64,000 nt of DNA from Pseudovibrio exalbescens. Its GTDB lineage: Bacteria > Pseudomonadota > Alphaproteobacteria > Rhizobiales > Stappiaceae. The notes beneath the pieces are model-generated. The model made no database searches. It was not told the origin of the DNA and worked only from the letters and a program-made list of their open reading frames with translations. Shown in pieces: positions 1,713 to 29,721 of this stretch (position 1 is its first letter; each line of letters begins with the position of its first letter). Location: assembly GCF_028737195.1 (NCBI RefSeq), contig NZ_JAQZAJ010000002.1, forward strand, positions 682,001 to 746,000, given 5' to 3'. The position numbers were made by a program, and so were the translations under genes.

Positions 1713-2551
1713 CCCATTGCCTCCTGAAGGTCAAACACTGGGCCCTCTTTGCACACGCGCAGGTGCACAACCTCTCCATTCTGCGAGAATGGGCGCACGC
1801 AGCATTGGCACATGCCGAGCCCACAGGCCATTTGCTGTTCCAGTGCGATTTCGCCGGGGATGTTATGCTTGGCGCCCAGCTCTTGAAGCAGCTTCAAGAG
1901 GCGATTGGAGCCACAGGTGTAGAACGCATCAACGCCTTGGCTGCCTATGAGTCCTTCAATCAGCGTTTGCAGGTTCTCAACGGAGGAGGAGCCATCTTCA
2001 TCTGTCACGCTGATCACTTGCGCGCCAAGAGAGCGGAAGTGCTCCGTGGAAAGCAGGGCGGCCTCAGAGCGTGCGCTGCAAATGGCTGTCAGCTTGCGTC
2101 CAAGCCGAGCAGCTTCTTGCGCAAGGGGCGCAAGAGTGGCAAGTCCAACGCCGCGAGCCACCAGCAGCAGGTTCTGCCACTCCGGTTTGATGGTGTAGCC
2201 AACACCCAGCGGGCCGAGCACATTGAACAGCTCCCCCGGCTTGAGTGTCGCCATGGCCGCGGTTCCCTCTCCAGCGACCTTGTAAAGAAAAGCAAGCTCA
2301 CCTTTGTCGGCATCAAAGCGATAGATGCTCATGGGGCGGCGCAGATAAGGCTGCTGTTGGTCCGTCACTGGACACAACAAATGGAAAAACTGCCCTGGTT
2401 GGCAGTTCAGGATGTGCTTTGGGGCTTCCAGTACCAGCAGCCGGTAGTCATCGTTGGCCGAGGTGTTGGACTTGACCGTACACAGTGCTTCAAATGCCTT
2501 AAGTCCGGCTTCAGGTCGAGCTGAAGCCGGATCCATGTCCTGATGTATCAT
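1706..2551 (-). CDS. pyrK: Dihydroorotate dehydrogenase electron-transfer subunit (PyrK)
   Basis: 281 residues. Ferredoxin-reductase fold: FAD-binding RRPMSIY at about 72-78, a flavin/NAD-binding half with LGPLGVGY and LLLVARGVGLATLAPL, TCGSN before the end, and a C-terminal [2Fe-2S] motif C-x4-C-x2-C-x15-C (MACGLGMCQCC then RVCKEGP). It carries electrons between NAD(H) and the FMN of PyrD in the A2B2 type 1B complex. The typical GGxG of the NAD pocket reads ARGVGLA here, which is unusual but still recognisable. It lies 9 bp after dctM and overlaps pyrD by 7 bp. The N-terminal 15 or so residues are poorly conserved, so the start could be slightly internal. Confidence 0.92.
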   Translation of the reverse strand: MIHQDMDPASARPEAGLKAFEALCTVKSNTSANDDYRLLVLEAPKHILNCQPGQFFHLLCPVTDQQQPYLRRPMSIYRFDADKGELAFLYKVAGEGTAAMATLKPGELFNVLGPLGVGYTIKPEWQNLLLVARGVGLATLAPLAQEAARLGRKLTAICSARSEAALLSTEHFRSLGAQVISVTDEDGSSSVENLQTLIEGLIGSQGVDAFYTCGSNRLLKLLQELGAKHNIPGEIALEQQMACGLGMCQCCVRPFSQNGEVVHLRVCKEGPVFDLQEAMGW

Positions 2552-2560
2552 TGTTAAGTC

Positions 2561-3841
2561 CTAGCCGAAGATGAGGCGTGGGATGAATAAGGAAAGATCC
2601 GGTACGTAGGTAACGATCCCCAAGACAACGAGGTTCATGACAACGAAAGGCCAGACCCCGCTGATGATCGTTGCCACCGGTTTGTTCAAAGTAGATGAAG
2701 CAACGAATATATCCAGCCCGAACGGCGGTGTGATCATGCCGAGGCTGATGTTGAGCGTGACAATCATGCCGAAGTGGACCGGATCAATGCCCAGGCTGGT
2801 TGCAACGGGGAACAGCGGCGGAACTAGCAGGATCAAGGCTGAGTTCGGATCAATGAACATGCCAGCGATCAGGAATGCCAGATTGATGATCATGAGGAAC
2901 ATGATTGGCCCGGCCTCAATGTCAGTCAAAAAGCCGGTAATGAAGGCCGGGACCTGCGCCAGTGTGACGAAGAACGCCAAAATGCCGCCGAACGCCAACA
3001 GGATGAAAATCACCGATGTTTGTATAGCGCTCTGCTCTGTAAGACGGAACAGATCCTTCAACGTCAGGTGTCGATACACCACCATCTCCACAATGATGGC
3101 GTAGACCACGCTGGTTACGGCCGCTTCGGTTGGCGTTACAAAACCAGAATAGATGCCACCGAGAATAATCACCGGCATGCCAAGTGCCCAGCCCGCACGA
3201 CGGAAGCTGACCCAGCGCTCTTTCCATGACGTGCGCTCATAGGTTTTGATTGGCGAGCGGCGGGCTTCCCACATCACCATCAGGGCAAATGCCAGACCAA
3301 GGATCACACCAATGGCAAGGCCGCCCGCGAACAGCTTTGCAACTGAGGTGCCAGTCATCCAGCCATAGATGATCATGGTGATGGATGGTGGAATGAGGAG
3401 GGCCGTTTCGGCACTGGAGACGATAAGGCCCGTGCTGAAGCGATCGGAAAACCCAGTTTCACGCAGGCGCGGATACACCATGCGGCCCATGGCAGCCACC
3501 GTTGCCGGCGCTGAACCGGAGACGGAGCCAAACATCATGGAGGCGCCAATGGTGGTGTGGCCCATGCCACCGCGCGTATGACCCACCAGCGTTTGAATGA
3601 AGTCGGTCAGCCGCCGCGCTATCTGACCTGCGCCCATGAGCTGCGCCGCAAAGATGAAGAACGGGATTGCGAGCAGCGTGGTATGGTTGATGCCGCCAAC
3701 CAGCTTTTGAACGAACACAGCCTCCGGAATGTGGCCGTAGAACATTTCCTTGACTGCAAGCGTAGGCAGGCCAAGCACGAGCAGCATTTCAAAGCCAAGG
3801 ATCAGCAGAGCTGCGGCAAGGAGAATGGGGATGGCAATCAT
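2561..3841 (-). CDS. dctM: TRAP transporter large permease (DctM family)
   Basis: 426 residues, very hydrophobic throughout, with the dozen or so membrane spans expected of the 4TM/12TM TRAP subunit. Family signatures include GGINHTTLLAIPFFIFAAQLM, GGMGHTTIGASMMFGSVSGSAPATVAAMG near residue 110, IPPSITMIIYG, and a late MFIDPNSALILLVPPLFPVATSLGIDPVHFG with ITPPFGLDIFV. It is the membrane channel of a sodium-coupled secondary uptake system for small organic acids, working with DctQ and the periplasmic DctP upstream. The start overlaps the dctQ stop (ATGA), and pyrK begins 9 bp after the stop. The substrate cannot be read from this subunit. Confidence 0.95.
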   Translation of the reverse strand: MIAIPILLAAALLILGFEMLLVLGLPTLAVKEMFYGHIPEAVFVQKLVGGINHTTLLAIPFFIFAAQLMGAGQIARRLTDFIQTLVGHTRGGMGHTTIGASMMFGSVSGSAPATVAAMGRMVYPRLRETGFSDRFSTGLIVSSAETALLIPPSITMIIYGWMTGTSVAKLFAGGLAIGVILGLAFALMVMWEARRSPIKTYERTSWKERWVSFRRAGWALGMPVIILGGIYSGFVTPTEAAVTSVVYAIIVEMVVYRHLTLKDLFRLTEQSAIQTSVIFILLAFGGILAFFVTLAQVPAFITGFLTDIEAGPIMFLMIINLAFLIAGMFIDPNSALILLVPPLFPVATSLGIDPVHFGMIVTLNISLGMITPPFGLDIFVASSTLNKPVATIISGVWPFVVMNLVVLGIVTYVPDLSLFIPRLIFG

Positions 3842-4446: not shown

Positions 4447-5481
4447 TCAGTTTGCGGAGACGTCCGCAAATGCTTTTTCGTAGATAGCGATCAGCTTCTG
4501 GCCTTCCTCGCCCGTTGCGGAGAGATAGGCATCCCGAGCGGTTGGGTACATCACTTCGCGCATCTTCGCCCGTTTTGCATCGTCTAGTTCGCGGACGGTC
4601 GTCCCGCTGTCCTTGATCACTTTGAGAGCGTCTTCGGCAGCAGCAGTCTTGTGCGCAACAAGCTCGGGGATCACTTCTTCGAAAGCTTCCGTAATGACGG
4701 TCTGATACTCAGCAGGCAGAGCAGCCCACCAAGCCTGATTGAACAAAACAACATCCTCGAAAGCGCCATGGTTGGTCAGAACAAGGTTGTCCTGCACCTC
4801 AAAGAACTTCATGCGCTGGATGGTATCAAGCGGGTTTTCCTGACCATCTACGATGCCCGTTTGCAGAGAGGTGTATACCTCATTGAATGGCAGCACGATT
4901 GCGGAAGCGCCCAATGCGGTAAACTGACCGATGAGGATTTTGGAGTCCATCACGCGGAACTTTTGGCCCTCAAAGTCATCAACGCTTTCAAGCGGTTTGT
5001 TGGAGGTCATGTGCTTCCAGCCATTTGGCCACAAGGCAACACCCTTCACGCCGCGGCTGTCGAAAGTCGCAAGCAGCGCTTCACCAAACTCACCGCCGCG
5101 GATTTTCTGAGCCTTCTCGGCATCCGTTGGCATCAGGTAAGGGATGTCGAGAACGGAAACCGCCGGGTTGAAGCCGCCAAGGAAACCGGCCGGAGAAACA
5201 GTGCCCTGAATGATGCCCAGCTGAACACCTTCAGTCATTTCGCGTTGGTTCCCAAGCTGACCTTGCGGGTAAATCTGGAACTCCACAGCACCGTCTGTGC
5301 GCTCCTTTACAAGCTCTGCAACCTTTTCGAGCATGATGTGACGGGACTGAGCCGTTGACTCAAGGTGTCCGATCTGAGCTGTGAAGTCAGCGGCGGAAGC
5401 AGTCGATACGGCAGCAAAAAACGCCCCGGAAGTGATTGCGCATGCAACCGCTGCCCGAGCAACTTTGTAAAGGTGCGTCAT
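4447..5481 (-). CDS. dctP: TRAP transporter substrate-binding protein (DctP family)
   Basis: About 344 residues from ATG 5481 (GGGGAAATC just upstream); the frame extends to 5517 but lacks a better site there. Residues 1-30 form a Sec signal peptide (basic start, hydrophobic core, cleavage near AASAAD). The body shows the family pattern GAVEFQIYPQGQLGNQREM, GQKFRVMDS, TSLQTGIVDGQENPL (the central substrate-binding strand) and a long C-terminal helix. It captures a carboxylate in the periplasm and delivers it to DctQM. As the first gene of an operon that continues into pyrK, pyrD and an N-carbamoyl hydrolase, it is a candidate orotate or N-carbamoyl-amino-acid binder; that ligand is inference. 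Confidence 0.94.
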   Translation of the reverse strand: MTHLYKVARAAVACAITSGAFFAAVSTASAADFTAQIGHLESTAQSRHIMLEKVAELVKERTDGAVEFQIYPQGQLGNQREMTEGVQLGIIQGTVSPAGFLGGFNPAVSVLDIPYLMPTDAEKAQKIRGGEFGEALLATFDSRGVKGVALWPNGWKHMTSNKPLESVDDFEGQKFRVMDSKILIGQFTALGASAIVLPFNEVYTSLQTGIVDGQENPLDTIQRMKFFEVQDNLVLTNHGAFEDVVLFNQAWWAALPAEYQTVITEAFEEVIPELVAHKTAAAEDALKVIKDSGTTVRELDDAKRAKMREVMYPTARDAYLSATGEEGQKLIAIYEKAFADVSAN

Positions 5482-5514
5482 GATTTCCCCGATAAAAGTG
5501 TTCAAACGGACGAA

Positions 5515-5542
5515 CATCTACACGAACAGCGAAGCCTGTCAA
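5515..5542 (-). promoter_or_regulatory. Candidate sigma70 promoter of the dctP operon
   Basis: Minus strand: a perfect -35 TTGACA (5542-5537), 16 bp spacer and TAGATG (5520-5515) as -10. This places transcription about 25-30 bp before the dctP start codon. A GAGC-7-GCTC inverted repeat a little further upstream could be an operator. Confidence 0.5.
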
Positions 5543-5998
5543 CATAGTTGAGTAGAATTGAGCTAATTTCGCTCACCTCACCATACGGGAGATACGTCAA
5601 TTCACTTATTTTGCGTCGCTTGGCTGGGCTGAAAACAAAAGCAAAGCCTTGCTAAAATGTGCTGTTTTTATCGGAATAAGCGATCAATATACTTTCGCTG
5701 CTAAGGGTGTGCAAGCGCCATGCTGGCATCAAGCACTTCTTATCCACGTTGAATTTTGCTCAACAATGAATCGTCCTTATTTAAATGCTGCTTGCAGGTA
5801 GCTCGAGCAGCTCTTCGCTCTGGCATTTGGCAAGGCAATAAAACAGATCTAAAGCTTGCGGCACAAGATAGGCTGCTGGTTTCTGTTAGTATCAAGAGCG
5901 TGAGGGTCAGAGTGGTTTCCGTTCTCTGAGAGCGGAAGGGAGCGTACAGGCCATTAGGCCTGTTTTCTGGGCAAGGACAACGAGGACGCGAAATCAGC
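5543..5998. other. Divergent intergenic region between dctP and the nucleotidyltransferase gene
   Basis: About 455 bp with no convincing coding frame. It is AT-richer than the genes on either side and should hold promoters for both directions. It includes TTGA-7-TCAA near 5750 and, close to the rightward gene, a perfect stem-loop listed separately. I see no known riboswitch. Confidence 0.5.
5946..5966 (+). terminator. Leader stem-loop with T-run before the nucleotidyltransferase gene
   Basis: ACAGGCC-ATTA-GGCCTGT followed by TTTTC, 33 bp before the start codon at 5999. It is a perfect 7-bp stem with intrinsic-terminator form. As it sits in the apparent 5' leader it may attenuate the downstream gene or end a short upstream transcript. 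Confidence 0.5.
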
Positions 5999-7396: not shown

Positions 7397-9219
7397 TGTT
7401 CTCTCTCCCCTTCAAAAGCCGCAAATAGTTTGGACAGCTCCACTTTCACCAGACCGCGAACGCTGTTTCCCACATAAACGGCCTCTGCCTTCACCAAGTC
7501 CTCTGGCCGCAGGTCGGCTTCTTCCGCGATGCCTCGTTCCAGCAGACCCGCTCGGAGCGTTCCGGGAAGCAGGCCGTGGCGCAGATGAGGCGTGAGCAGC
7601 TTTCCGGGGTTCCTGATGAAGAGCGTTGTGAAACTGCCTTCCGTCAGAAAGCCGTCCTCGTTGGTGAAGATGGTTTCCTGACAGTCGAACCGTTCCTGAT
7701 ATCGCTTGCGGGCGTCGTCATAAAATGCCCGGTGCGTTGTCTTGTGAAAGAGAAACCGGTTGTTTGAAAGGAGCGGTTCCCGTGCAAGGCAAACAGACCA
7801 CGCGCTGTCTGACGCTGAGGGCAGGGGCGTATTTTCTATTTGGAAGCTCCCATCCTCGTGCAGCTCCAAACGTACCCGTTGGGCGCTCGGGTCCCACGCA
7901 TTTGCGTGAGCCGCTAATGCCGCACGCACAGCCTCGCCATCGATCTTGAAGCCAAAATACGAAGCGCTCTCCAGCAAGCGGGCCATATGGCGCTCAAGAA
8001 GGAAGAAGCCGTCTTCAGGTGTCCACTTCATGGTCTCAATGAGGCCAAACGGTTCAATCGGATCAGTGAAGACTTCGAGCTTCAGCAAGCATTCTTCATA
8101 CTCAGGGGAGGCTCCGGAATCGAAGACCACGCCCGAGCCCGTTCCAAGACTGCCGTTACCGGCCTCATCAAGCACAAGCGTGCGTATGGCCACATTGAAG
8201 CAAAAGTCACCATTTGGTTCGATTGCACCAATGGAGCCGGTGTAGATGCCGCGCGGACTGGCTTCTAGATCGTCAATAATCTCCATGGCCCGCAGTTTAG
8301 GGGCTCCGGTGATGGAGCCACACGGAAACAACCTCTCCATGATCTCAGGAAGCTCCGCGCCCGGCTCAAGCTTTGCCGTGGTTGTAGAGGTCATCTGGAA
8401 GATGCTGCGATAGGTCTCCACCTCGCAATGGGACGGTACCGCAACACTGCCCGGCTCGGCGATGCGCGACAGGTCGTTGCGCATCAAGTCTAGGATCATG
8501 GTGTTTTCGGCCCGGGATTTGGTATCGCTCGCAAGCCAGCGTGCGATGCGCTGATCTTCTGCTCGCGTGCGCCCTCGTGCGGCTGTGCCTTTCATCGGCT
8601 TGCAGGTGAGTAGGTCTCCACGACGAGAGAGAAATAACTCAGGTGAAATGGAAAGCACACGGTGCCCATTCATATGCATCAACGCTGCATAGTCGACGGG
8701 TTGCTGAAACAACAGCCGTTCAAACAGATGAACCGGGTCGCCCTCAAACTGTAGTGCAGCGCGCATGGTCAGGTTGATTTGATAGATGTCACCTTCCGCC
8801 AGGTGCTGCTGTGTCTTTTGGAAAGCAGCATCATAGGCATCGCGGCTCAGATCGAACTCTTTGAGGTCAATCTTGGCGGACGTTTCGCTCGGGTCCCGGG
8901 CTTGATGAAGCCATGATCGGACCTGCGTTGCAGTAAGGTGTTCAGGTGCCTCATAGATCCCGAACCATGAGAGAGGCATCCCGCCAGTGCCGCGAAAGCG
9001 CGGGATCAGCTTTTCTTCAAAGGCAAAACCGAATTCATACGAAAAATAGCCAGCAAGGTAGGCGCCGTTCTTTCGCGCTTCTTCCAGTGCAGCAAGTGTT
9101 GCACGCACATCGTCCAGCGACCAGCACTCAATCACATCCAATGGTTTGGAAAGGAGACGTGCTTCAAACCGCGATTTGCGGTCGAGCAGCAGAACCGTGC
9201 CATCCTCAAATCGCGACAT
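7387..9219 (-). CDS. pabB: Aminodeoxychorismate synthase component I fused to 4-amino-4-deoxychorismate lyase (PabB-PabC)
   Basis: About 610 residues. The N-terminal half is a chorismate-binding domain: ISPELFL, KPMKGTA at about 207-213, RAENTMILDLMRNDLSRIA and CGSITGAPK. The C-terminal half, from about residue 360, is a PLP fold-IV lyase: KTTHRAFYDDAR with the Lys, ETIFTNEDGFLTEGSFTTLFI, LLPGTLRAGLLE. Together they make 4-aminobenzoate from chorismate for folate, with glutamine amidotransferase PabA encoded elsewhere. Such fusions are common in alphaproteobacteria. I chose ATG 9219; a TTG nine bases upstream also opens the frame. Confidence 0.93.
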   Translation of the reverse strand: MSRFEDGTVLLLDRKSRFEARLLSKPLDVIECWSLDDVRATLAALEEARKNGAYLAGYFSYEFGFAFEEKLIPRFRGTGGMPLSWFGIYEAPEHLTATQVRSWLHQARDPSETSAKIDLKEFDLSRDAYDAAFQKTQQHLAEGDIYQINLTMRAALQFEGDPVHLFERLLFQQPVDYAALMHMNGHRVLSISPELFLSRRGDLLTCKPMKGTAARGRTRAEDQRIARWLASDTKSRAENTMILDLMRNDLSRIAEPGSVAVPSHCEVETYRSIFQMTSTTTAKLEPGAELPEIMERLFPCGSITGAPKLRAMEIIDDLEASPRGIYTGSIGAIEPNGDFCFNVAIRTLVLDEAGNGSLGTGSGVVFDSGASPEYEECLLKLEVFTDPIEPFGLIETMKWTPEDGFFLLERHMARLLESASYFGFKIDGEAVRAALAAHANAWDPSAQRVRLELHEDGSFQIENTPLPSASDSAWSVCLAREPLLSNNRFLFHKTTHRAFYDDARKRYQERFDCQETIFTNEDGFLTEGSFTTLFIRNPGKLLTPHLRHGLLPGTLRAGLLERGIAEEADLRPEDLVKAEAVYVGNSVRGLVKVELSKLFAAFEGEREHQP

Positions 9220-11925: not shown

Positions 11926-12576
11926 TTAGGTTGTGTAACGGACATCCAGGCCACAAATGCCGCAATAACCCTCGGGGTTTTTGGCAAGATATTGCTGATG
12001 GTAGTCCTCAGCCCAATAAAAGGCAGGGGCTGTTCGAATTTCTGTCGTTATGCTTCGTCCCAAATCGGATTCTCTTAGATTTCTCTGATAAACCTCCTTT
12101 GATTCTCTTGCGGTGGAAAGGTCACTCGAATCAAAAGTGTATATCACTGACCGATATTGACTGCCAATATCGTTACCCTGCCGCATTCCCTGAGTTGGGT
12201 CGTGATTTTCCCAAAAGAGCTTCAAGAGCTGATCAAGGGATGCCTCGGTGGGATCAAACACAACAAACACAACTTCGGCATGGCCAGTTCGCCCCGTACA
12301 TACCTCATTATAGGTGGGGTTGGGCGTGCCTCCGCCCGCATAGCCAACGCCAGTGACGTAGACGCCTTCTTTGTTCCAGAACAGGCGCTCTGCCCCCCAA
12401 AAACATCCCATGCCGATGACGAGCCGTTTGAAGCCTGCTGGGTAAGGGCCCGCCAGAGGCTGCCCGTTTACATGATGGGTACCTGGAAGGTTTATGGGGT
12501 CATGCCGCCCCGGCAGCGTTCCTTCATTGGATTTGCCGCTGAACTTGTTGGACAGCATGTTCATGAATGACATCAT
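11926..12576 (-). CDS. msrA: Peptide methionine-S-sulfoxide reductase MsrA
   Basis: 216 residues. The active-site GCFWGAE gives the nucleophile Cys58, followed by GVYVTGVGYAGG, the family pattern TGHAEVV, LFWENHDPTQGMRQGNDIGSQYRS and AEDYHQQYLAKNPEGYCGICG, which holds the C-terminal resolving cysteines. It reduces the S-form of methionine sulfoxide in oxidised proteins using thioredoxin. The first 35 residues precede the usual core, typical of long alphaproteobacterial MsrA. ATG 12576 has AGGGGAGGTT upstream. Confidence 0.96.
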   Translation of the reverse strand: MMSFMNMLSNKFSGKSNEGTLPGRHDPINLPGTHHVNGQPLAGPYPAGFKRLVIGMGCFWGAERLFWNKEGVYVTGVGYAGGGTPNPTYNEVCTGRTGHAEVVFVVFDPTEASLDQLLKLFWENHDPTQGMRQGNDIGSQYRSVIYTFDSSDLSTARESKEVYQRNLRESDLGRSITTEIRTAPAFYWAEDYHQQYLAKNPEGYCGICGLDVRYTT

Positions 12577-12666
12577 AACCTCCCCTGAAACGACTTGATA
12601 TCAAACTGGAGTAAGTCTGAGATAAATCAAGGCGTCAACTGGCGGGCGGCGAGGCAGGCTGGCGAC

Positions 12667-12984
12667 TTACAAAAGCGAGGCGCGCAGTCTTTTCCGGCGG
12701 TCGCCGTACCAGAGCAGCAAAAGGCCCAGAGGGGTAAAAACAACCCACGCCGGATATTGCAGGAGGCCTTGGAGGATCGGATCCCAAAGGAATGGAGAAA
12801 CATTCCGTTGGATTCCCGCCTGAGCCGCGTTCAGACTTTCCGGCGACAAGTCAAACCAGACTTGCCCCATCGGCGTCACCACCCATGCCGAGGCGGCGAT
12901 GCTGCGTGTGCAGTCAACCACAAACGCGACCAATGCCACGGCAACAAACCAAAGGCCGAATACTCTCGCCAAAAAACTGAACAC
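12667..12984 (-). CDS. Small inner-membrane protein of unknown function
   Basis: 105 residues from a GTG start with GGGGG upstream. Two clear hydrophobic spans lie at about residues 5-25 and 76-94, the second ending in a basic tail (YGDRRKRLRA). The segment between (WVVTPMGQVWFDLSPESLNAAQAGIQRNVSPFLWDPIL) would face the periplasm. Similar small proteins occur in many alphaproteobacteria without assigned function. The opposite-strand frame here is lower quality, so I take the minus strand as coding. Confidence 0.7.
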   Translation of the reverse strand: MFSFLARVFGLWFVAVALVAFVVDCTRSIAASAWVVTPMGQVWFDLSPESLNAAQAGIQRNVSPFLWDPILQGLLQYPAWVVFTPLGLLLLWYGDRRKRLRASLL

Positions 12985-13266
12985 CTGTGCCCCCGTTTAT
13001 CTGGGTTGTAAGGACGTGCAGACGCCTTGACGTGTCTGCGTATTGGGATCCTTACGCCATATCATGATCATTGAAACTCAACATCCGGTGAATGATTAGT
13101 GATGCTCTTGAAAATACGTGGAATCCGAAGCTGTTGTGCGTTTCGTGCCGGCTAAGTTCACAGGTTGGGGAAAGCTGAAGGTTTTTTCAAAATAAGTCCT
13201 TGCGCCCTCCGGGTGCTTTGACTATACCCCCACTCACGCCGTCGGTGCCAAGCCGACGCAGCAAGC
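12985..13266. other. Intergenic region before tRNA-Ser
   Basis: About 280 bp without a supported gene. It should contain the tRNA promoter. A CGTCGG-7-CCGACG stem-loop sits a few bases before the tRNA 5' end and may help leader processing. Confidence 0.4.
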
Positions 13267-13356
13267 GGAGAGGTGGCCGAGCGGTCGAAGGCGCACGCCT
13301 GGAACGCGTGTAGGCGGGAAACCGTCTCCAGGGTTCGAATCCCTGTCTCTCCGCCA
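13267..13356 (+). tRNA. tRNA-Ser(GGA)
   Basis: 90 nt with encoded CCA. Acceptor GGAGAGG pairs with TCTCTCC (one G-T pair), followed by discriminator G and CCA. The D-arm reads GGCCGAGCGGTCGAAGGC. Anticodon stem CACGC/GCGTG encloses loop CTGGAAC, giving anticodon GGA (reads UCC and UCU). A long variable arm TAGGCGGGAAACCGTCT marks a class II serine tRNA. The T-arm is CAGGG-TTCGAAT-CCCTG. The gene is intact and marks the chromosome side of the junction with foreign DNA. Confidence 0.98.
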
Positions 13357-13401
13357 TTAACCTAAAACGAACTTGTCTATGCCCGAGATGGCATAGCCTC
13401 A

Positions 13402-13426
13402 AAAGCCCAGCATTTGCGGGCTTTTT
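13402..13426 (+). terminator. Terminator downstream of tRNA-Ser
   Basis: AAGCCC, a 12-nt centre and GGGCTT followed by a T-run, 46 bp after the tRNA CCA end. Confidence 0.75.
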
Positions 13427-13504
13427 CGCTATTTGCAATTGACTTCCTCTCTATAAAAACACCCCGTTTTTCTCTAATTTTCCTCCTATATATGCCCCTT
13501 TCCT

Positions 13505-13537
13505 GAAAAACACCGTACTTGGAAAAGCGAAGTACGG
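13505..13537 (-). terminator. Terminator of the leftward repressor operon
   Basis: Minus strand: CCGTACTT, a 9-nt loop and AAGTACGG, a perfect 8-bp stem, followed by TGTTTTTC. It lies about 70 bp after the stop of the last gene of the operon. Confidence 0.75.
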
Positions 13538-13606
13538 AGCTTTTAGTCATGGGAAATCAATGGTTTGGCAATTGACCAGTTCGCAGCAGTCTATGCCTAT
13601 CATTGA

Positions 13607-14659
13607 CTATTCATCAGGTGAGATATGAAATTTGGAGCGATAGCAAACGCGGTTTTTGTGATCTTTGTAATCCTCAAATGGGTCACTGTCATATATGCCG
13701 AAGAACTTTTGAAAGACCTTCTTCAGTTCTTGTTTTTGCTTTTTCTGGTTTCGGTTGGCTTTCGGGTTATCCCACGTGAATTGGCCTCGCTCATCTGCAA
13801 AGCCTTCCAGCAGATTCCATTGTTTGTTGGGAGATGCTGTTCGGCCATCAGCCATGCCCATCTGGGTAAAATTGTAAACTTGGGAAACCCTATTGTTACC
13901 AGTATTGCAAGTGACACGAACCGTATGCCCATCGGTGAACTTAACCGTAATATTCGACCACTCTGCATCGGCTGGGGTTGGAAATAAGACACAGCTCACT
14001 TCTGGCATTGGGTCTTCTTGAGCCTCATGAAAGGCAGAAAATGCTTCTGAGGCTTTTTTGGTATCAATGAGCATGTCTGCATTAGTCAAATCTTGCAGAC
14101 CAATTAAAGCAGAGCTTTTAGCTCGGATAGCATTTATCTTGGATTGGCTGATGTTGTCGACAGACGGCATCAGCAAAATGGCTGATCCATCAAGACCAAT
14201 CACATGGTTGATTATGCCTTCCAGATCTCCATCGTGAATGTCTATTCCAAAGAAAACTGGATAACGGATGGTGCCGCGAGGTATGTAATGCCCAACCCTT
14301 ATACAGCTTGAGGTGCCATCAATGGTTTGTATATCCTTTGAAACTGAAATCTCATTCGTAGAGTCGGCGATTAAGCCAGCAATTTTTTTTAGACTTAGAG
14401 TATGCAGCCGTCTGTCATTATTCGAAATATGTAAGTCTGGGCAGGATGTGGTGTCATCATTACAAACTGCCAGCATTTTCCCATTAGGCATTTCACACAC
14501 ACGCCTTCCACCGCAATGCCCATGATCACAATGCAACTGTTCATCAAAAGCAGTTGTGCTATCGAACCAAGACTTGATTAACTCAGCATCACCAAAGTGT
14601 TTGATTAAAAATGCATGGTTATGTTCATGCCGAGGCAGCTTCGCGAGCATATTCCACAT
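13607..14659 (-). CDS. Unrecognised protein with an N-terminal Cys/His cluster (third gene of the repressor operon)
   Basis: 350 residues from ATG 14659, chosen for its strong AGGAGG site; the frame is open to 14695. Residues about 40-90 hold C-x4-C-x5-C and V-C-x7-C (CDHGHCGGRRVC, AVCNDDTTSC), which looks like a zinc-binding module. The middle has GTIRYPVFFGIDIHDG and DGSAILLMPSVD, perhaps an alpha/beta domain. The last 120 residues (SNITVKFTDGHTVRVTCN, FTQMGMADGRTASPNKQW) may form a small winged or beta domain before a basic tail. I do not recognise the family. Its start lies inside the preceding gene (35-bp overlap), so it is translationally coupled to it and under the prophage repressor promoter. 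Superinfection immunity or phage defence is a guess from context. Confidence 0.75.
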   Translation of the reverse strand: MWNMLAKLPRHEHNHAFLIKHFGDAELIKSWFDSTTAFDEQLHCDHGHCGGRRVCEMPNGKMLAVCNDDTTSCPDLHISNNDRRLHTLSLKKIAGLIADSTNEISVSKDIQTIDGTSSCIRVGHYIPRGTIRYPVFFGIDIHDGDLEGIINHVIGLDGSAILLMPSVDNISQSKINAIRAKSSALIGLQDLTNADMLIDTKKASEAFSAFHEAQEDPMPEVSCVLFPTPADAEWSNITVKFTDGHTVRVTCNTGNNRVSQVYNFTQMGMADGRTASPNKQWNLLEGFADERGQFTWDNPKANRNQKKQKQELKKVFQKFFGIYDSDPFEDYKDHKNRVCYRSKFHISPDE

Positions 14660-15830
14660 ATTGCGCTGCCTCCTGTTTTGATGATCTAGGTTCAACTAGC
14701 CCTTGGTCGGTGATCCAATCTTCCACAACCAGAAAATCTTCGTCACGACTGAACGTGGCACGATTGCCAGCCCGGATATCAATTGGCCTTGCCTTTTTCA
14801 CCCCTTCAAACTTTACGCTGAACTTGGCAAAATTAATGGCCGCACGCTTTGTCGATTCCTGTCCGTTTTTCCGTATAAGCGTGTTGAGAAGATTGCCTGA
14901 TTTTCTGATTTCAGTTTCGCCGCCCCAATCATAATGAATTTCAACCAGCTTCACATCTTCAACACCATCAGTAGTGGCAAAATTATGGGCGGCATTATCA
15001 ACATCTCTCAATTTCTCTAACGAAAACTTCTTTTGCTCAGAGAAGTACTCCTCGTTACCAAAAATATGTTTTCCCACGCAGCGCAAGAATTCTTCTATCT
15101 GACCTTTTTTCTTGCTAGATATTCTGACGCTGACATCATCGCTGTCGCAATTGTAAATCAAAAGATCGTGGCATTGAGGGTTGTAAAATACGCTCCCTGT
15201 CTCGCCATCTTTCATTTTAAATTCACGCTTTAATGGCTTGCCGTATTTTATAACGATGCTAACTCGGTGCCCTTGAGGGAACAAATAAACTCGGCAATTT
15301 CGCAATCGGTTATTACTGGCAAACCAGTCATCAAGCTCTGATTGCAGTGCTGTGATTGTTCCATCTGAAATCTCTGGAAAAGATCTTTTTTGAGCGTGAG
15401 AGCCCCAATAAAAACTAAAGCCCCGATAGTTTCGGACTAATGATCGCGCATATTCCGTATGGAAAAGATCAGGCTGATTTAAAAAGCAAAACAGGGCTAA
15501 ATCTTCATGTGATCCGGGTATATAGTGTAACTCGATACCTTGGTCTTTGGCTGCTGATATCAGCGAGTCCATCGCTTCTTGACTGGACATTTCTGTAATT
15601 AATTGCAGAGCTTCCATCAACTCGTGCGTTTCATCCGAATCTTGAACGCTGTCGTTTGGGCGGATAAGCGCTTTTGTAATATCTTCAAAATTCAATGTGC
15701 CGTTTTCGAGATGAATCTCATGCTCTTCAAAGAATTTTGGAAACTTTCTGAATAGCTGAATAAGCAGCTCTGCATCCAGACCGCCTAAAACATCTACATT
15801 TGTGAATACCTTTGGATTATATCTCGACAT
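14625..15830 (-). CDS. Unrecognised protein (second gene of the repressor operon)
   Basis: 401 residues from ATG 15830 (AGGAG 7 nt upstream). The start overlaps the repressor stop by 14 bp. No membrane segments or Walker motif. It is acidic, with GGLDAELLIQLFRKFPKFFEEHEIHL at the start and a central part QGIELHYIPGSHEDLALFCFLNQPDLFHTEYARSLV. A segment around 200-290 (FPQGHRVSIVIKYGKPLKREFKM, SSKKKGQIEEFLRCVGKHIFG) is probably a beta-rich domain. The C-terminus ends in a short basic and acidic region. I do not recognise the family. Sharing a transcript with the lysogeny repressor means it should be made in the lysogen, as superinfection-exclusion and defence genes often are (inference). Confidence 0.75.
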   Translation of the reverse strand: MSRYNPKVFTNVDVLGGLDAELLIQLFRKFPKFFEEHEIHLENGTLNFEDITKALIRPNDSVQDSDETHELMEALQLITEMSSQEAMDSLISAAKDQGIELHYIPGSHEDLALFCFLNQPDLFHTEYARSLVRNYRGFSFYWGSHAQKRSFPEISDGTITALQSELDDWFASNNRLRNCRVYLFPQGHRVSIVIKYGKPLKREFKMKDGETGSVFYNPQCHDLLIYNCDSDDVSVRISSKKKGQIEEFLRCVGKHIFGNEEYFSEQKKFSLEKLRDVDNAAHNFATTDGVEDVKLVEIHYDWGGETEIRKSGNLLNTLIRKNGQESTKRAAINFAKFSVKFEGVKKARPIDIRAGNRATFSRDEDFLVVEDWITDQGLVEPRSSKQEAAQYVEYAREAASA

Positions 15831-16479
15831 CGCCAATCTCCTGTTTCGTCGTTACAGGGTTGGCCTCGGTGTCAACACCCGAGCAGACGTGTAAGACCTT
15901 CCCAATTATTTTAAGTTCATCTTGTTGTCCTATGATGATGGGTTTTAGTTTCTGATTTTCAGGGCGCAGTTCAATATGCTCCCCTTCAATGCTCAGCCGC
16001 TTTACAGTGGTCTCTTCGCCGACCATGGCCACCACAATATCGCTGTTTTCAGCAATCGGCTGCTGGCGCACAACAACGTAATCTCCCTCGAAAATATCAG
16101 CATTGATCATGCTGTCACCTTGCACTTTGAGCGCAAAGCATTTCCCGCGCAGCACATTATCCGGCACCATGACCTGACCAATCTGATTCTCAAGGGCGAG
16201 AATCGGTTGGCCAGCCGCAACCATCCCTAAAACAGGAACAGCCGTCAGATTGGTTTTATCCGGTGTTTGTGCGTGGAGGACTTCGATGGAACGCGCTTTT
16301 CGCGCTTGCCTGCGAATATAGCCTTTATCTTCCAGCCGCTTGAGCCCTTCAAACACACTGGGCGCTTTCACACCCAATTCCACAGCAAGCTCTTGTACCG
16401 TGGGCGACATCCCCATGGCACGTTTCAGGCGCTCAATGGCCTGTAATAGCGTATTCTGTGCGTTTGTCAGTTGCTCCAT
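15817..16479 (-). CDS. LexA/S24-type self-cleaving repressor of the prophage
   Basis: 220 residues. The N-terminal winged helix is LexA-like: MGMSPTVQELAVELGVKAPSVFEGLKRLEDKGYIRR. The C-terminal S24 domain has the Ala89-Gly90 cleavage site in LGMVAAGQPILA, nucleophile Ser123 in VQGDSMINADIFEGDYVVV, and the base Lys160 in TTVKRLS. RecA-stimulated self-cleavage after DNA damage should derepress its targets. It is the only repressor-type protein I see in the element, so it is probably the lysogeny switch. Its promoter is overlaid by an inverted-repeat operator (16506-16546), which supports autoregulation. Two unknown genes follow in the same operon. The host SOS LexA would be elsewhere. Confidence 0.9.
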   Translation of the reverse strand: MEQLTNAQNTLLQAIERLKRAMGMSPTVQELAVELGVKAPSVFEGLKRLEDKGYIRRQARKARSIEVLHAQTPDKTNLTAVPVLGMVAAGQPILALENQIGQVMVPDNVLRGKCFALKVQGDSMINADIFEGDYVVVRQQPIAENSDIVVAMVGEETTVKRLSIEGEHIELRPENQKLKPIIIGQQDELKIIGKVLHVCSGVDTEANPVTTKQEIGDVEI

Positions 16480-16505: not shown

Positions 16506-16546
16506 CCTAATATAAATTAGGCTTTTGATTTTCACAAGCCTAATTT
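16506..16546. promoter_or_regulatory. Operator of the LexA-like repressor
   Basis: AAATTAGGCTT (16514-16524) and its exact inverse AAGCCTAATTT (16536-16546) flank an 11-bp centre. An overlapping palindrome CCTAATATAAATTAGG covers 16506-16521. Three half-sites with core CCTAAT therefore lie over the repressor promoter, a layout suited to cooperative dimer binding and to control of the rightward genes. Confidence 0.7.
16509..16537 (-). promoter_or_regulatory. Promoter of the repressor operon
   Basis: Minus strand: -35 TTGTGA (16537-16532), exactly 17 bp, -10 TATATT (16514-16509). The start of transcription falls about 20-25 bp before the repressor start codon. Both boxes overlap the operator half-sites. 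Confidence 0.65.
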
Positions 16547-16641: not shown

Positions 16642-16851
16642 ATGTCTTCACTTTCCCCAAACCTAATAAATGAACGAGATCGCCGCACCGAAGTGGCCCG
16701 TTTACTGGCACTTGGCATTCTGCGCCGCAAGATCCGTCTGAACCGTCAGTTCGAGCCAACACATCCCTCTAATTCATTGGACTTACAAGTTTTTCCAAGC
16801 GTTCATGCCCATGACGAAGAACCAAAAAACCAAGGAGAAACAGATGGATAA
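16642..16851 (+). CDS. Small phage protein of unknown function
   Basis: 69 residues with an excellent ribosome-binding site (AAGGAGG, 8-nt gap). A basic N-terminal half (NERDRRTEVARLLALGILRRKIRLNRQ) could form a helix, followed by a polar tail. The end overlaps the DUF2924 start by 8 bp, so the two are coupled. Not recognised beyond that; small proteins in this position usually accompany DUF2924 and a recombinase. Confidence 0.65.
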   Translation: MSSLSPNLINERDRRTEVARLLALGILRRKIRLNRQFEPTHPSNSLDLQVFPSVHAHDEEPKNQGETDG

Positions 16852-17299
16852 AACACTTCTGGCGCGTGTGGCGGCACTCCCAAACATGCCGCTATCAGAC
16901 CTGAAAGCATTATGGCGGGATGTGTATCAGGACGAACCACCCGGCGGCCATAAAAGCCACATTGTCCGCAGACTGGCTTATCGCCTGCAGGAGCTTGCAT
17001 ATGGCGTTGATCCGCAGATTGAGAACCGGATCGAACAGCAGGCCAATGATTTATTCGGATCGGGCAAGAAATCCAAGCCGAAGCGCAAGACACAATATCA
17101 GCGGCCCATCCCCGGCACCAAACTTGTTCGGGAATATAAGGGCATTGAATATCAGGTCACCATTTTAGAAGAAGGCTACGAATATGCAGGCTGTTTATAC
17201 AAAAGCCTGTCGAAAGTTGCGCTGGCCATAACGGGCAGCAGCTGGTCAGGACCTGCCTTCTTCGGATTAAACAACAAAGCACAAGGAGGCAAACATTGA
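16844..17299 (+). CDS. DUF2924 protein, partner of the adjacent serine recombinase
   Basis: 151 residues from ATG 16844 (AAGGAGAAACAG upstream). The family pattern is LSDLKALWRDVYQDEPPGGHKSHIVRRLAYRLQELAYG, then RPIPGTKLVREYKGIEYQVTILEEGYEYAGCLYKSLSKVALAITGSSWSGPAFFGL. DUF2924 genes sit directly upstream of large serine recombinases in many alphaproteobacterial elements; a role with the recombinase, perhaps in directionality, is likely but unproven. The stop overlaps the recombinase TTG start. Confidence 0.88.
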   Translation: MDKTLLARVAALPNMPLSDLKALWRDVYQDEPPGGHKSHIVRRLAYRLQELAYGVDPQIENRIEQQANDLFGSGKKSKPKRKTQYQRPIPGTKLVREYKGIEYQVTILEEGYEYAGCLYKSLSKVALAITGSSWSGPAFFGLNNKAQGGKH

Positions 17300-18681
17300 G
17301 CGCAACTACACCGAAAAAACGCTGCGCGATTTATACGCGCAAATCTACTGAAGAAGGCTTGGACATGGAATTCAACAGCCTTGATGCTCAGCGCGAGGCT
17401 TGTGAGTCCTACATTGCCTCACAAAAACATGAAGGCTGGTTTCAGCTTCCTGATGAATATGATGATGGCGGCTTCACAGGCGGCAATATGGATCGTCCGG
17501 CTTTGAAGCGCCTGATGGACGATATCAAAAGCGGGCTGATTGATACGGTTGTCGTGTACAAGGTTGACCGTTTGTCGCGCTCCTTGGCTGATTTTGCCAA
17601 ACTAATTGATCTGTTCGATGAGCACAAAGTGTCCTTTGTCTCTGTGACCCAGCAATTCAACACCACCACATCAATGGGCCGACTGACGCTGAATATTCTG
17701 CTGAGTTTCGCCCAGTTTGAGCGTGAGGTGATTGGCGAACGCATCCGCGATAAATTAGCCGCCTCCAAACGCAAAGGCATGTGGATGGGCGGTGTCACGC
17801 CCATGGGCTATGTGGTCAAAAACCGCGAGCTTGTGATCGAGCCTGATGAGGCTGAGGGCATCCGCAAAATATTTGATCTGTTTTTGATGACCAAGTCACC
17901 AACGGAAATGGCGAAAATGTTGCCGCGCATGGGAGTGTTAAGCAAGAAGCGTACAACCAAGAACGGACGGGTTATTGGAGGCAAGGCACTGGATAAAGGC
18001 GGTCTCTATAAGATTCTGCAAAACCCCATCTATATCGGCAAGATCAAGCATAAAGACAAAATCTACGAAGGCCGCCATCCAGCCATCATTGATATGGATA
18101 CGTGGAATAAAGTCCGCGCCATCATGAAAGAAAACACCATCAATAGAGGCGCAATCACACGCAAGAAAACCAAGGCCATTTTGATGGGGCTTTTGAAATG
18201 CGGTGAATGTGGATGCTCTTTGGTGCCAAGCCATACCCGTAAAAAAGGCGGCAGGCTTTATCGCTATTACACCTGCGAACACTATCGCAAAGGTATCAAA
18301 CCTGATTGCAAAGTTCGTAATGTCAGTGCCAGTGAGATGGAAGCTTTGATCCTGACACAGCTGCAAGCCGTTTTTGCCTCACCTGAAATGATCGTTGAGA
18401 CATGGCGCGAGGCATACAAAGAAGATGAAAGCGTGACTGAAACGGAAGTCCGGGACGCGCTTGGCAATATTGTACCGATCTGGAAGGAGCTTTTTCCGGC
18501 AGAGCAGCAACGTATTCTTGAGCTGATGATTGAGAAAGTCATCGTCAATTATGAATATGTCGATGTCCGTATCCGGGCAGATGGCATGCTTAGCCTTGCA
18601 CGAGAATTGGACGAACAAGAAAAGCGCCTCCAAGGAATTTCAACCAAACAATTGGAGGAGCAAGCATGGATGCACGCATAA
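17296..18681 (+). CDS. Large serine recombinase (site-specific integrase)
   Basis: 461 residues from TTG 17296, with AAGGAGG upstream and overlap with the preceding stop. The resolvase domain has AIYTRKSTEE with nucleophile Ser17, SLDAQREACESYI, VYKVDRLSRSLADF and FAQFEREVIGERIRDK. The recombinase domain follows at about 170-290 and a zinc ribbon with CGECGCSLVPSH...YYTCEHYRK...C, then a short helical end. It is somewhat shorter than many large serine integrases because the C-terminal coiled-coil region is reduced. It should integrate and excise the prophage. The att core it uses is not identifiable from one end. Confidence 0.93.
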   Translation: MSATTPKKRCAIYTRKSTEEGLDMEFNSLDAQREACESYIASQKHEGWFQLPDEYDDGGFTGGNMDRPALKRLMDDIKSGLIDTVVVYKVDRLSRSLADFAKLIDLFDEHKVSFVSVTQQFNTTTSMGRLTLNILLSFAQFEREVIGERIRDKLAASKRKGMWMGGVTPMGYVVKNRELVIEPDEAEGIRKIFDLFLMTKSPTEMAKMLPRMGVLSKKRTTKNGRVIGGKALDKGGLYKILQNPIYIGKIKHKDKIYEGRHPAIIDMDTWNKVRAIMKENTINRGAITRKKTKAILMGLLKCGECGCSLVPSHTRKKGGRLYRYYTCEHYRKGIKPDCKVRNVSASEMEALILTQLQAVFASPEMIVETWREAYKEDESVTETEVRDALGNIVPIWKELFPAEQQRILELMIEKVIVNYEYVDVRIRADGMLSLARELDEQEKRLQGISTKQLEEQAWMHA

Positions 18682-19274: not shown

Positions 19275-19823
19275 ATGAGCAAAAACAACTATGAAGGAAT
19301 CCATCCTTATGTCGTAAACCAAGTCCGTTATCACGCACGCAGCCTGATGCGGCACTCCGCCATTCATGGCGTAGAAGTCGAGGACCTCGAGCAAGAGCTA
19401 ATGCTGGATTATCTATCCCGCAAGCAGGCTTATGATCCCGAAAAAGCAAAATGGTCGACCTTTGTTGACCGCATCCTCAACCACAAATGCGCCAGCCTGA
19501 TTGAGGCCGCCCGCGCACAAAAACGTGGGTCCGGCATCAGTGATTTCTCACTTGATGCATGGCTTGAGGATAAGGATGGCGAAGACAACGCCTTGCCTGA
19601 TCCCGCAACCGAAGACCTGACCAGCCGCGACCTTCAAATTGACCTTGAACAGGCCGTTCAGCAGATGCCGCCGCATCTGGTGTTGCTGCTCGTTGATCTG
19701 CGGACGCTCAGCATCAGTGAAATCTCACGCAAAACCAAAACCCCACGATCAACCCTTTACGGGACGCTGTCCGAACTACGCGGATCGCTGAAGGAGCGTG
19801 GCTTTGCGGAATACCTGCACTGA
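19275..19823 (+). CDS. Sigma-70-like (ECF-type) RNA polymerase sigma factor of the prophage
   Basis: 182 residues, with GGAGACGAAAACC before the ATG. The first half matches sigma region 2: VVNQVRYHARSLMRHSAIHGVEVEDLEQELMLDYLSRKQAYDPEKAKWSTFVDRILNHKCASLIEAARAQKR. The second half is region 4: LEQAVQQMPPHLVLLLVDLRTLSISEISRKTKTPRSTLYGTLSELR, with the HTH at the end. It has its own leader, with a TCACCGG-4-CCGGTGA hairpin, between a strong terminator and the replication operon. Directly after it lies the second copy of the paired-box element, which may be its target promoter (inference). Confidence 0.8.
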   Translation: MSKNNYEGIHPYVVNQVRYHARSLMRHSAIHGVEVEDLEQELMLDYLSRKQAYDPEKAKWSTFVDRILNHKCASLIEAARAQKRGSGISDFSLDAWLEDKDGEDNALPDPATEDLTSRDLQIDLEQAVQQMPPHLVLLLVDLRTLSISEISRKTKTPRSTLYGTLSELRGSLKERGFAEYLH

Positions 19824-28428: not shown

Positions 28429-29721
28429 ATGGATTTAAATGTTCAGCAAATTGAGCTGGAGCAGCTGGTTCCTTATGCCCGCAACGCCCGCACACACAGC
28501 GACTCACAGGTCGCACAGATTGCAGGCTCGATTGCTGAATTCGGCTTTGTAAATCCTGTTCTGGTTGGCGGCGATAATATCATCATCGCAGGCCATGGTC
28601 GTGTGATGGCAGCCAAGAAGCTCGGCCTGCAAACCGTTCCGACCATCAAGCTGGATCACCTGACAGAAAATCAGCGCCGCGCCTTGGTGATTGCCGATAA
28701 CAAAATCGCCGAGAATGCCGGATGGGATGAAGAATTACTGCGATTAGAATTACAAAATCTTGCCGATGAGGATTTCGATCTTGATCTGCTGGGCTTTGAC
28801 GATGTGGAGTTGGATGATTTATTGGCATCACTGGATGACGATGAAGCAGCCGCGCTTGATGAAAACATTCCGGAAGTACAGGAAAATCCTGTCAGCCGCA
28901 CAGGCGATATCTGGATTATGGGTGAGCACCGTTTGCTCTGCGGCGACTCCACAAGTGAAGCCGACATGAAAAAACTGATGGGTGGTGAGCTGGCCGATAT
29001 GGTCTTTACCGACCCGCCCTATAATGTGAATTACGGCGATACAGCCAAAGACAAGCTGCGCTCCAAAGGTGGAGCTAAAGCCGGACGCAAGATTATGAAT
29101 GATAATCTGGGCGATGACTTTGAGGCGTTTTTAACCGCAGCCTGTAAAAACATGCTGGATTATACCAAGGGTGCTCTTTACATCTGTATGAGTTCCAGCG
29201 AGCTGGATACGCTGCAAAGCGCCTTCCGCCATGCGGGCGGTAAATGGTCAACCTTTATTATCTGGGCGAAAAACACCTTCACCCTTGGCCGTTCTGATTA
29301 TCAGCGCCAATATGAGCCCATCCTATATGGCTGGAAAGATGGCAATGACCGCTACTGGTGCGGTGCACGTGATCAGGGTGATGTCTGGTTTTATAACAAA
29401 CCGCAGAAGAACGATCTGCACCCGACCATGAAGCCTGTTGATTTGGTAGTACGCGGGATTAAAAATTCCAGCAAGACGCTGGATATTGTGCTCGATCCCT
29501 TTGGCGGTTCTGGTTCAACACTGATTGCTGCAGAACATACCGGGCGACAGGCACGACTGATTGAGCTTGATCCTAAATATGTGGATGTGATTGTGCGGCG
29601 CTGGCAGGAAATGACCGGATTACAAGCAACGCTATCTGGTACCGGTCAGGACTTTAAGGCTGTTGAAAAAGACCGCCTTGGGAGCAAGGCCGAAGCCTCA
29701 CTGCCTGTGGAGGGCGAGTGA
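28429..29721 (+). CDS. ParB-domain / DNA methyltransferase fusion
   Basis: 430 residues. Residues 1-100 form a ParB/sulfiredoxin-like domain: LVPYARNARTHSDSQVAQIAGSIAEFGFVNPVLV and IIAGHGRVMAAKKLG. An acidic linker follows. From about 160 comes a beta-class amino-methyltransferase: FTDPPYNVNYGDT (catalytic motif IV), a target-recognition region, then LDPFGGSGSTLIAAEHTGR (cofactor motif I). It should methylate adenine N6 or cytosine N4 in its own recognition sequence, often protecting phage DNA from host restriction. This fusion is frequent next to terminase genes. Confidence 0.92.
   Translation: MDLNVQQIELEQLVPYARNARTHSDSQVAQIAGSIAEFGFVNPVLVGGDNIIIAGHGRVMAAKKLGLQTVPTIKLDHLTENQRRALVIADNKIAENAGWDEELLRLELQNLADEDFDLDLLGFDDVELDDLLASLDDDEAAALDENIPEVQENPVSRTGDIWIMGEHRLLCGDSTSEADMKKLMGGELADMVFTDPPYNVNYGDTAKDKLRSKGGAKAGRKIMNDNLGDDFEAFLTAACKNMLDYTKGALYICMSSSELDTLQSAFRHAGGKWSTFIIWAKNTFTLGRSDYQRQYEPILYGWKDGNDRYWCGARDQGDVWFYNKPQKNDLHPTMKPVDLVVRGIKNSSKTLDIVLDPFGGSGSTLIAAEHTGRQARLIELDPKYVDVIVRRWQEMTGLQATLSGTGQDFKAVEKDRLGSKAEASLPVEGE

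Follow-up and report, generated by a model that had tools for sequence, protein, structure and literature searches.

In phage lambda, the repressor gene cI is followed in line by rexA and rexB. The crystal structure of RexA (8TWQ) is reported to resemble RdgC, IML3, and CHL4, and RexA is reported to bind DNA, to bias the cI switch towards lysis, and, together with RexB, a predicted four-helix membrane protein, to exclude T4 rII (PMC11077077). The same report states that RdgC reduces both strand exchange by RecA and cleavage of LexA (PMC11077077), and a resemblance of Chl4/Iml3 to RdgC has been reported separately (PMC4080450). RexAB-type pairs near prophage repressors are described as defending their hosts (PMC12894663, PMC6426596), and RdgC-like operons of Bacillus and haloarchaea are described as encoding an RdgC histone, an RdgC-like protein, and a membrane protein with a winged helix (PMC11390915). 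Here we analyze a prophage gene set in a 64,000-nucleotide stretch of Pseudovibrio exalbescens DNA (contig NZ_JAQZAJ010000002.1, positions 682,001 to 746,000; hereafter the window), in which a LexA-like repressor (P0003) is followed by two proteins, P1 (P0001) and P2 (P0002). At a probability of about 0.5, we read P1–P2 as a partly Rex-like complex with which the phage would bind DNA in early development and at the lysis/lysogeny switch.

The repressor–P1–P2 layout is a real parallel to cI-rexA-rexB. In both, a repressor of the self-cleaving kind comes first, two genes follow in line, and the first partner has RdgC and Chl4 as fold relatives, for P1 by a predicted and partial match. P1, however, has no sequence link to RexA/DUF4747 and is 122 amino acids (aa) longer; RexB is a predicted membrane protein, whereas P2 is not hydrophobic, carries a cysteine cluster, and has relatives with a winged helix; and 52 of the 71 P1 loci with at least 0.8 kb upstream lack a LexA-like gene directly ahead of P1. 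RdgC (PF04381), the recombination-associated ring protein, is the best, partial, fold match of P1, but there is no sequence match, and P1 is phage-borne with a near-constant partner. The Bacillus and haloarchaeal operons likewise encode an RdgC-like protein beside a winged-helix protein; judged from their description, they are set apart by a histone gene, absent from the P1–P2 operon, and P2 is not hydrophobic. The OmpR/PhoB winged helix (Trans_reg_C, PF00486) is matched by relatives of P2, which adds an N-terminal cysteine cluster. Among the matches listed in the open-licence literature, no description of the P1–P2 pair was found, for a pair that has no name to search by.

Organization of the gene set

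The genes are read leftward, on the minus strand, in the order repressor, P1, P2. The repressor (220 aa; 15817–16479) combines a LexA winged helix with an S24 self-cleaving domain. Its matches to Peptidase_S24 (4e-33), LexA_DNA_bind (1.1e-13), and NCBIfam lexA (180.8 bits; cut-off 110.95) bear out the self-cleaving type named in the first-pass annotation of this DNA. P1 (401 aa; 14625–15830) starts with ATG and is modeled with a helical N-terminus and a region that is partly RdgC-like by fold prediction. P2 (350 aa; 13607–14659) also starts with ATG and has, from its model and alignment, a cysteine cluster, an alpha/beta middle region, and a C-terminal winged-helix region. The open reading frames (ORFs) overlap by 14 bp (repressor/P1) and 35 bp (P1/P2), and the ribosome sites AGGAG and AGGAGG stand ahead of P1 and P2, respectively. 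An intrinsic terminator 3' of P2 (13506–13537, minus strand), picked by eye, consists of an 8-bp stem followed by TGTTTTT, with a z of -4.58 against shuffles. An automatic terminator scan of the window, which returned 6 sites of its own against 3.3 expected, does not list it because its loop has 9 bases. The leftward set of overlapping genes described earlier is thus confirmed.

The single promoter claimed for the set is supported in part. A candidate, TTGTGA-17-TATATT (16509–16537, minus strand), has its -10 box overlapped by a CCTAAT-N4-ATTAGG box; its consensus match alone is not above chance. A consensus scan of the window gave 5 sites against 6.1 expected, so that the scan by itself is no evidence, and one of its sites (16537–16509) is the one that sits under the conserved box. 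We infer that the three genes form one transcript. Against L002, a related locus whose DNA is 94–98% identical across the three genes and the block 3' of them, the ratio of nonsynonymous to synonymous change (dN/dS) is 0.05 for the repressor, 0.06 for P1, and 0.05 for P2. All three genes are under purifying selection.

Predicted fold of P1

Neither partner had been recognized earlier, and this holds: Pfam, NCBIfam, PHROGs, and PADLOC give nothing significant for P0001 or P0002, and no credible match came from comparing profiles with PDB sequences. PF04381 (RdgC) and DUF4747 (PF15931) match neither P0001 nor any of the 48 members of the P1 alignment, and the window's genome has no PF04381 match. 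Weak library matches of P0001/P0002 were set aside (Sigma70_r1_1, 0.049; DUF3109, 0.2; phrog_10597, 0.55). Pfam matches within the P1 alignment are scattered and weak, involving 13 families, the best at 0.0012 and none in more than 3/48 members; phrog_16073 is matched by 1/48.

An AlphaFold2 model of P1 from the 48 aligned sequences has a mean predicted local distance difference test score (pLDDT) of 86.8 and a predicted template modeling score (pTM) of 0.81. Foldseek returned three PDB matches at E ≤ 0.001 for this model. The top two are chains B and A of Escherichia coli RdgC (2owl; E 5.6e-5 and 1.7e-4, probability 1.00). The third is chain N of 7qoo, the human constitutive centromere-associated network (CCAN; E 4.4e-4), followed by chains N of other human and yeast CCAN entries; we take chain N of these entries to be CENP-N/Chl4. 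RdgC and CCAN chain N are not random companions in such a search, because Chl4/Iml3 are reported to resemble RdgC, and RexA to resemble RdgC, IML3, and CHL4. P1 is predicted, from this partial match of its model, to belong to the RdgC/RexA/Chl4 fold class. The structure-based search thus gave a partial match for P1, to RdgC and CCAN chain N, and no significant fold match for the whole P2 model.

Features of P2

The N-terminal cysteine cluster noted earlier in P2 (C44-x4-C49 ... C66-x6-C73; 14441–14530, minus strand) is conserved in the P2 alignment. The C44 and C66 columns are kept in 57/59 members, P0002 included. All four columns are kept in 41/59, three in 3, two in 13, and none in 2, and the second cysteine of P0002 (C49) lies one residue off its alignment column. 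A winged helix is predicted at about residues 270–347 (13619–13852, minus strand), inside the exchanged segment described below, from the P2 model (59 aligned sequences; mean pLDDT 92.1, pTM 0.66) and from 6/59 members that match PF00486 (best 3.9e-8). The highest 19-residue hydropathy mean of P2 is 1.44 against 2.39 for RexB; by this measure P2 is not a membrane protein, and hence no RexB.

Other candidates for P2 were set aside. phrog_731, of unknown function, is matched by 4/59 members (best 3.4e-6). A CARF model is matched by 1/59 (0.0085), in agreement with a weak Can2 fold match (E 0.042), and is too weak to use. The predicted alpha-beta order of the middle region raised a catalytic nuclease role. 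Such nucleases are recognized by a conserved acidic/lysine motif, and the role was rejected because this motif was not seen there.

Distribution and co-evolution of the pair

We searched IMG/VR with a five-sequence P1 profile and took the best 80 of 81 loci. The same profile matched 21/398 genomes sampled from the phylum and 16/397 from the order, and a single-sequence P1 search matched 3/289 from the class, each count including the window's own genome. Dropping near-duplicates and ORFs below 300 aa left 74 distinct P1 ORFs, the window's type included. Whether the homologues travel as a pair had been posed as a check, and they do: P2 lies next to P1, downstream and on the same strand, in 65 of the 68 distinct loci with at least 1 kb downstream. 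Measured from the longest-ORF start, the two genes overlap in 62 of these 65, one locus has a 5 bp gap, and two have them about 1.2 kb apart. The linkage to repressors proposed for the pair holds in part; a LexA-like gene is directly upstream of P1 in 19/71 loci, the window included, and not in the other 52. Other repressor types were outside the systematic search of these loci.

Of the three other loci, two, L160 and L161, carry a single 774–786 aa ORF whose first part resembles P1 and whose later part weakly resembles P2. A profile of four such ORFs scored 97.2% (3e-11) against P1 and 35.2% (4e-4) against P2. A divergent 311-aa ORF takes the P2 position in L156. P1 and P2 co-evolve: across 27 loci their distances correlate at 0.95, and a partial correlation of 0.76 remains after controlling for three downstream genes, while six other gene pairs give partial correlations of -0.20 to 0.36, except for the neighbors P196 and the ATPase (0.69).

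Downstream and on the same strand, a sigma-like gene is present in 35 of the 39 loci that extend for 3 kb or more (LexA being present as well in three of the 35), and an AAA_24-type ATPase in 32 of the 37 with at least 4.5 kb; a helicase follows further on in many. A serine recombinase or DUF2924 is nearby in 41 of the 64 loci with at least 1.4 kb upstream. Because the pair usually stands ahead of phage replication genes on the same strand, it appears to be a core phage module and not a moron. The loci belong largely to one phage family, in which we take the pair for a long-standing and nearly constant module, joined in part of the family to a LexA-like repressor. Searches by tblastn gave no match in phage records (P0001, P0002, and two distant P1 members) or in plasmid records (P0001, P0002, and one distant P1 member).

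Some variants were seen at individual loci. In L008, a DUF3800 ORF (4845–5975) lies between P1 and P2, and L092 and L093 have ORFs of 376–380 aa in the same place. P1 copies in L104 and L110 contain internal stop codons and are apparently decaying. A very divergent P1–P2-like pair (L156, 9314–11447) lies elsewhere in genome G367 and adjoins, by eye, an XRE-type regulator and a metallopeptidase, not LexA. Possible RexAB pairs begin with DUF4747 genes in L171 (1441–2364, then 2369–3004) and L172 (1258–2169, then 659–1219), the second ORF in each having hydrophobic stretches by eye; L171 is from G367, also a carrier of P1–P2.

Apparent exchange of P1 and part of P2

DNA identity to the window was scored per 60-base step. 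In L004, the repressor gene is 90–100% identical and the block 3' of P2 88–96%. Between them, P1 is at 55–81%, and P2 is at 65–76% in the first part after its conserved start, 81–96% in the middle (14299 to 14120), and 28–58% in the rest. In L006, the P2 middle is at 95–98%, most of the remaining P2 at 33–60%, and most of the block at 95–100%. In L007, the C-terminal part of P2 (70–81%) is more alike than the part preceding it (53–73%). With divergent segments between nearly identical flanks, P1 and the C-terminal part of P2 look swapped by recombination. Positive selection for the L004 divergence was rejected: synonymous differences are high (proportion of synonymous differences, pS, 0.83 for P1 and 0.62 for P2), as would follow if a distant allele had been swapped in. 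Between the window and L004, the repressor gene and its upstream region stay 83–100% alike despite the difference in the exchanged parts, so what the exchanged part reads is probably not the repressor's operator but something else.

A candidate operator on the candidate promoter

The box read on the minus strand as CCTAAT-TTAT-ATTAGG (16506–16521) sits on the candidate -10 box and is a candidate repressor operator. With at most two mismatches, it occurs upstream of 17/23 LexA-like genes, the window's included, at 22 to 69 bp before the longest-ORF start, and its shuffle frequency in those stretches is 0 to 0.023 each. The 23 distinct upstream stretches include the window's own and those of near relatives such as L002 and L004; the window and L015 supplied the pattern. 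At one mismatch or less, CCTAAT-N4-ATTAGG is found at a single place in the whole 4.39 Mb genome, 16506–16521. An 11-bp perfect inverted repeat, AAATTAGGCTT-N11-AAGCCTAATTT (16514–16546), spans the candidate promoter, with further half-sites of the box. For the candidate operator, it is position and conservation that matter, not the match count.

The repressor would repress its own gene set at this box, and its cleavage would lead to induction. The partners had been expected to be made in the dormant prophage through the repressor transcript; a candidate operator on the set's own -10 box makes self-repression likelier than a simple "on in the lysogen". Damage-inducibility, claimed along with it, is likely, since the partners share the gene set with a self-cleaving-type repressor.

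Proposed function and alternatives

In our reading, P1, as a member of the RdgC/RexA/Chl4 fold class, would bind DNA in the manner of a clamp, probably without sequence specificity, and P2 would be its partner, guiding it to particular DNA through the winged helix. The complex would act in early phage development, at the lysis/lysogeny switch and in early DNA metabolism. In this sub-lineage, the LexA-like repressor would repress its own gene set at CCTAAT-N4-ATTAGG, so that its cleavage would raise P1–P2 at prophage induction. The overlaps, the conserved box at the promoter, purifying selection, linkage, co-evolution, and mosaicism are seen in the sequence, and the P1 fold, the P2 winged helix, and the P2 half of the fusions come from models or profiles. 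We infer that P1 and P2 form a complex and bind DNA, that the repressor binds the box, and that the pair acts in the switch.

Several results weigh against this reading. The P1–RdgC fold match is partial (template modeling score 0.32 by query and 0.40 by target; root-mean-square deviation 9.3–11.5 Å), and RexA (8TWQ) is not among the best 50 P1 Foldseek matches listed. In hhalign, the P1 profile scores 1.35% against RdgC and 0.1% against seven RexA/DUF4747 sequences; this negative carries little weight, because RexA and RdgC, reported structural relatives, reach just 0.6% against each other. For the whole P2 model, neither the PDB nor the viral models gave a match below E 1e-3, PF00486 is not matched by P0002 itself, and support for the P2 half of the fusions is weak. 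P1 and P2 are both net acidic, and DNA binding by the pair is putative. The box is absent upstream of 6/23 LexA-like genes. A reversed control pattern also has one place in the genome, and the window holds 2 boxes with at most two mismatches against 1.42 expected, which is chance level; the number of box matches therefore proves nothing. Finally, P1–P2 lies outside the replication operon in the window, so its role there may have shifted.

The proposed defense cassette is not supported. No PADLOC-DB 2.0.0 model is matched by P0001 or P0002, at E 0.01 the matches are 0/48 P1 members and 1/59 P2 members (the CARF model, E 0.0085), and the usual position ahead of replication genes is a core pattern. 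The pair has the look of a regular, seemingly undescribed component of a large phage family, not of a bolt-on defense cassette. A more specific form of the idea is Rex-like superinfection exclusion, in which P1, in the lysogen, would sense recombination intermediates or the DNA of foreign phages and P2 would act with it as effector or adaptor to abort infection by other phages. The layout parallels cI-rexA-rexB, the partial fold matches of P1 are ones also reported for RexA, host defense is reported for RexAB-type pairs near prophage repressors (PMC12894663, PMC6426596), and P1–P2 alleles are swapped by recombination, as specificity modules often are. We nevertheless consider it unlikely: P2 lacks the hydrophobicity of RexB, in the window a terminator and a host tRNA come after P2, the pair is near-constant in its phage family with a LexA-like gene directly upstream in 19/71 loci, and the PADLOC counts are those just given.

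A brake on RecA appears distinctly unlikely. An RdgC-like P1 would limit RecA filaments or RecA-driven repressor cleavage, giving feedback on induction and shielding replicating phage DNA from recombination. This would suit the best P1 fold match, given that RdgC is reported to lower RecA strand exchange and LexA cleavage (PMC11077077), as well as the place of P1 between a LexA-type repressor and P2 in a genome without a PF04381 match; but the similarity is one of fold only, RexA, with a similar fold, has another reported role, and the 52 loci without a LexA-like gene directly upstream do not fit. Replication initiation or origin recognition, with P2 binding the phage origin and P1 helping to load replication proteins encoded downstream, seems improbable. 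The usual order does put the pair ahead of the sigma-like gene and the AAA_24-type ATPase, many loci have a helicase beyond these, and 6/59 P2 members match the winged helix, but the window and its nearest relatives carry the pair on the other strand, beyond the integrase.

A DNA-binding complex for early development and the switch remains our preferred reading. A bolder extension of it, which we hold only tentatively, is an undescribed, ancient two-protein device of temperate phages. An RdgC/RexA-type clamp (P1) would be aimed at selected DNA by a swappable winged-helix partner (P2), sometimes fused to it. Incorporated in some lineages into the operon of a LexA-type repressor, the device would tune RecA-driven induction or exclude rivals; it would form a third, membrane-free branch beside RdgC and RexAB.

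Prophage context and attachment side

The gene set lies at the left end of a prophage with recognizable primase, terminase, portal, protease, capsid, tape-measure, and tail genes. A host tRNA-Ser(GGA) (13267–13356, plus strand) marks the left junction. A divergent DUF2924 gene and a large serine recombinase, the phage integrase, are assigned by profile matches (16805–18681, plus strand); in the open-licence literature searched, DUF2924 appears in three papers, all on Wolbachia. A sigma-factor-like gene (19275–19823, plus strand) matches Sigma70_r2 at E 1.6e-4, which falls short of the Pfam cut-off; its relatives usually follow P2. The window and its nearest relatives have the P1–P2 pair on the opposite strand, across the integrase. 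A ParB-like and DNA methyltransferase protein is encoded inside the prophage at 28429–29721.

Between P2 and the tRNA lies a strongly conserved non-coding block (13357–13606), which aligns in L002, L004, L005, L006, and L007 and is probably an attachment arm of the serine integrase. It is far more conserved than P2: an exact 124-bp run is common to L006, from a Solemya symbiont, whose P2 is 55% identical over the part compared. An RNA gene in the block was rejected (RsmY, 17.1 bits against a gathering threshold of 57; whole-block folding z -1.58), and short hairpins stand out in it (z -4.58, -2.09, and -2.54). No exact direct repeat of at least 14 bp was found between 12500–13700 and the window right of 16000, which fits a serine integrase. 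Among 8 related loci, a tRNA-Ser stands at the junction in 3, namely L002 (GGA, 8475–8564), L006 (GCT, 1223–1313), and L007 (CGA, 1312–1401); the other 5 have no tRNA within the stretch compared. One phage type thus lies beside tRNA-Ser genes of differing anticodon, though the window's prophage integrase is a serine recombinase.

Implications

These results provide leads to the function of two protein families that Pfam, NCBIfam, PHROGs, and PADLOC do not recognize in P0001/P0002, and a specific candidate operator that can now be tested. A RexA/RdgC-fold protein that is near-constant in a different phage family, and stands behind a repressor in some lineages only, would be a natural comparison. 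If the reading is true, it suggests that a developmental role may be possible without a RexB-type membrane partner.

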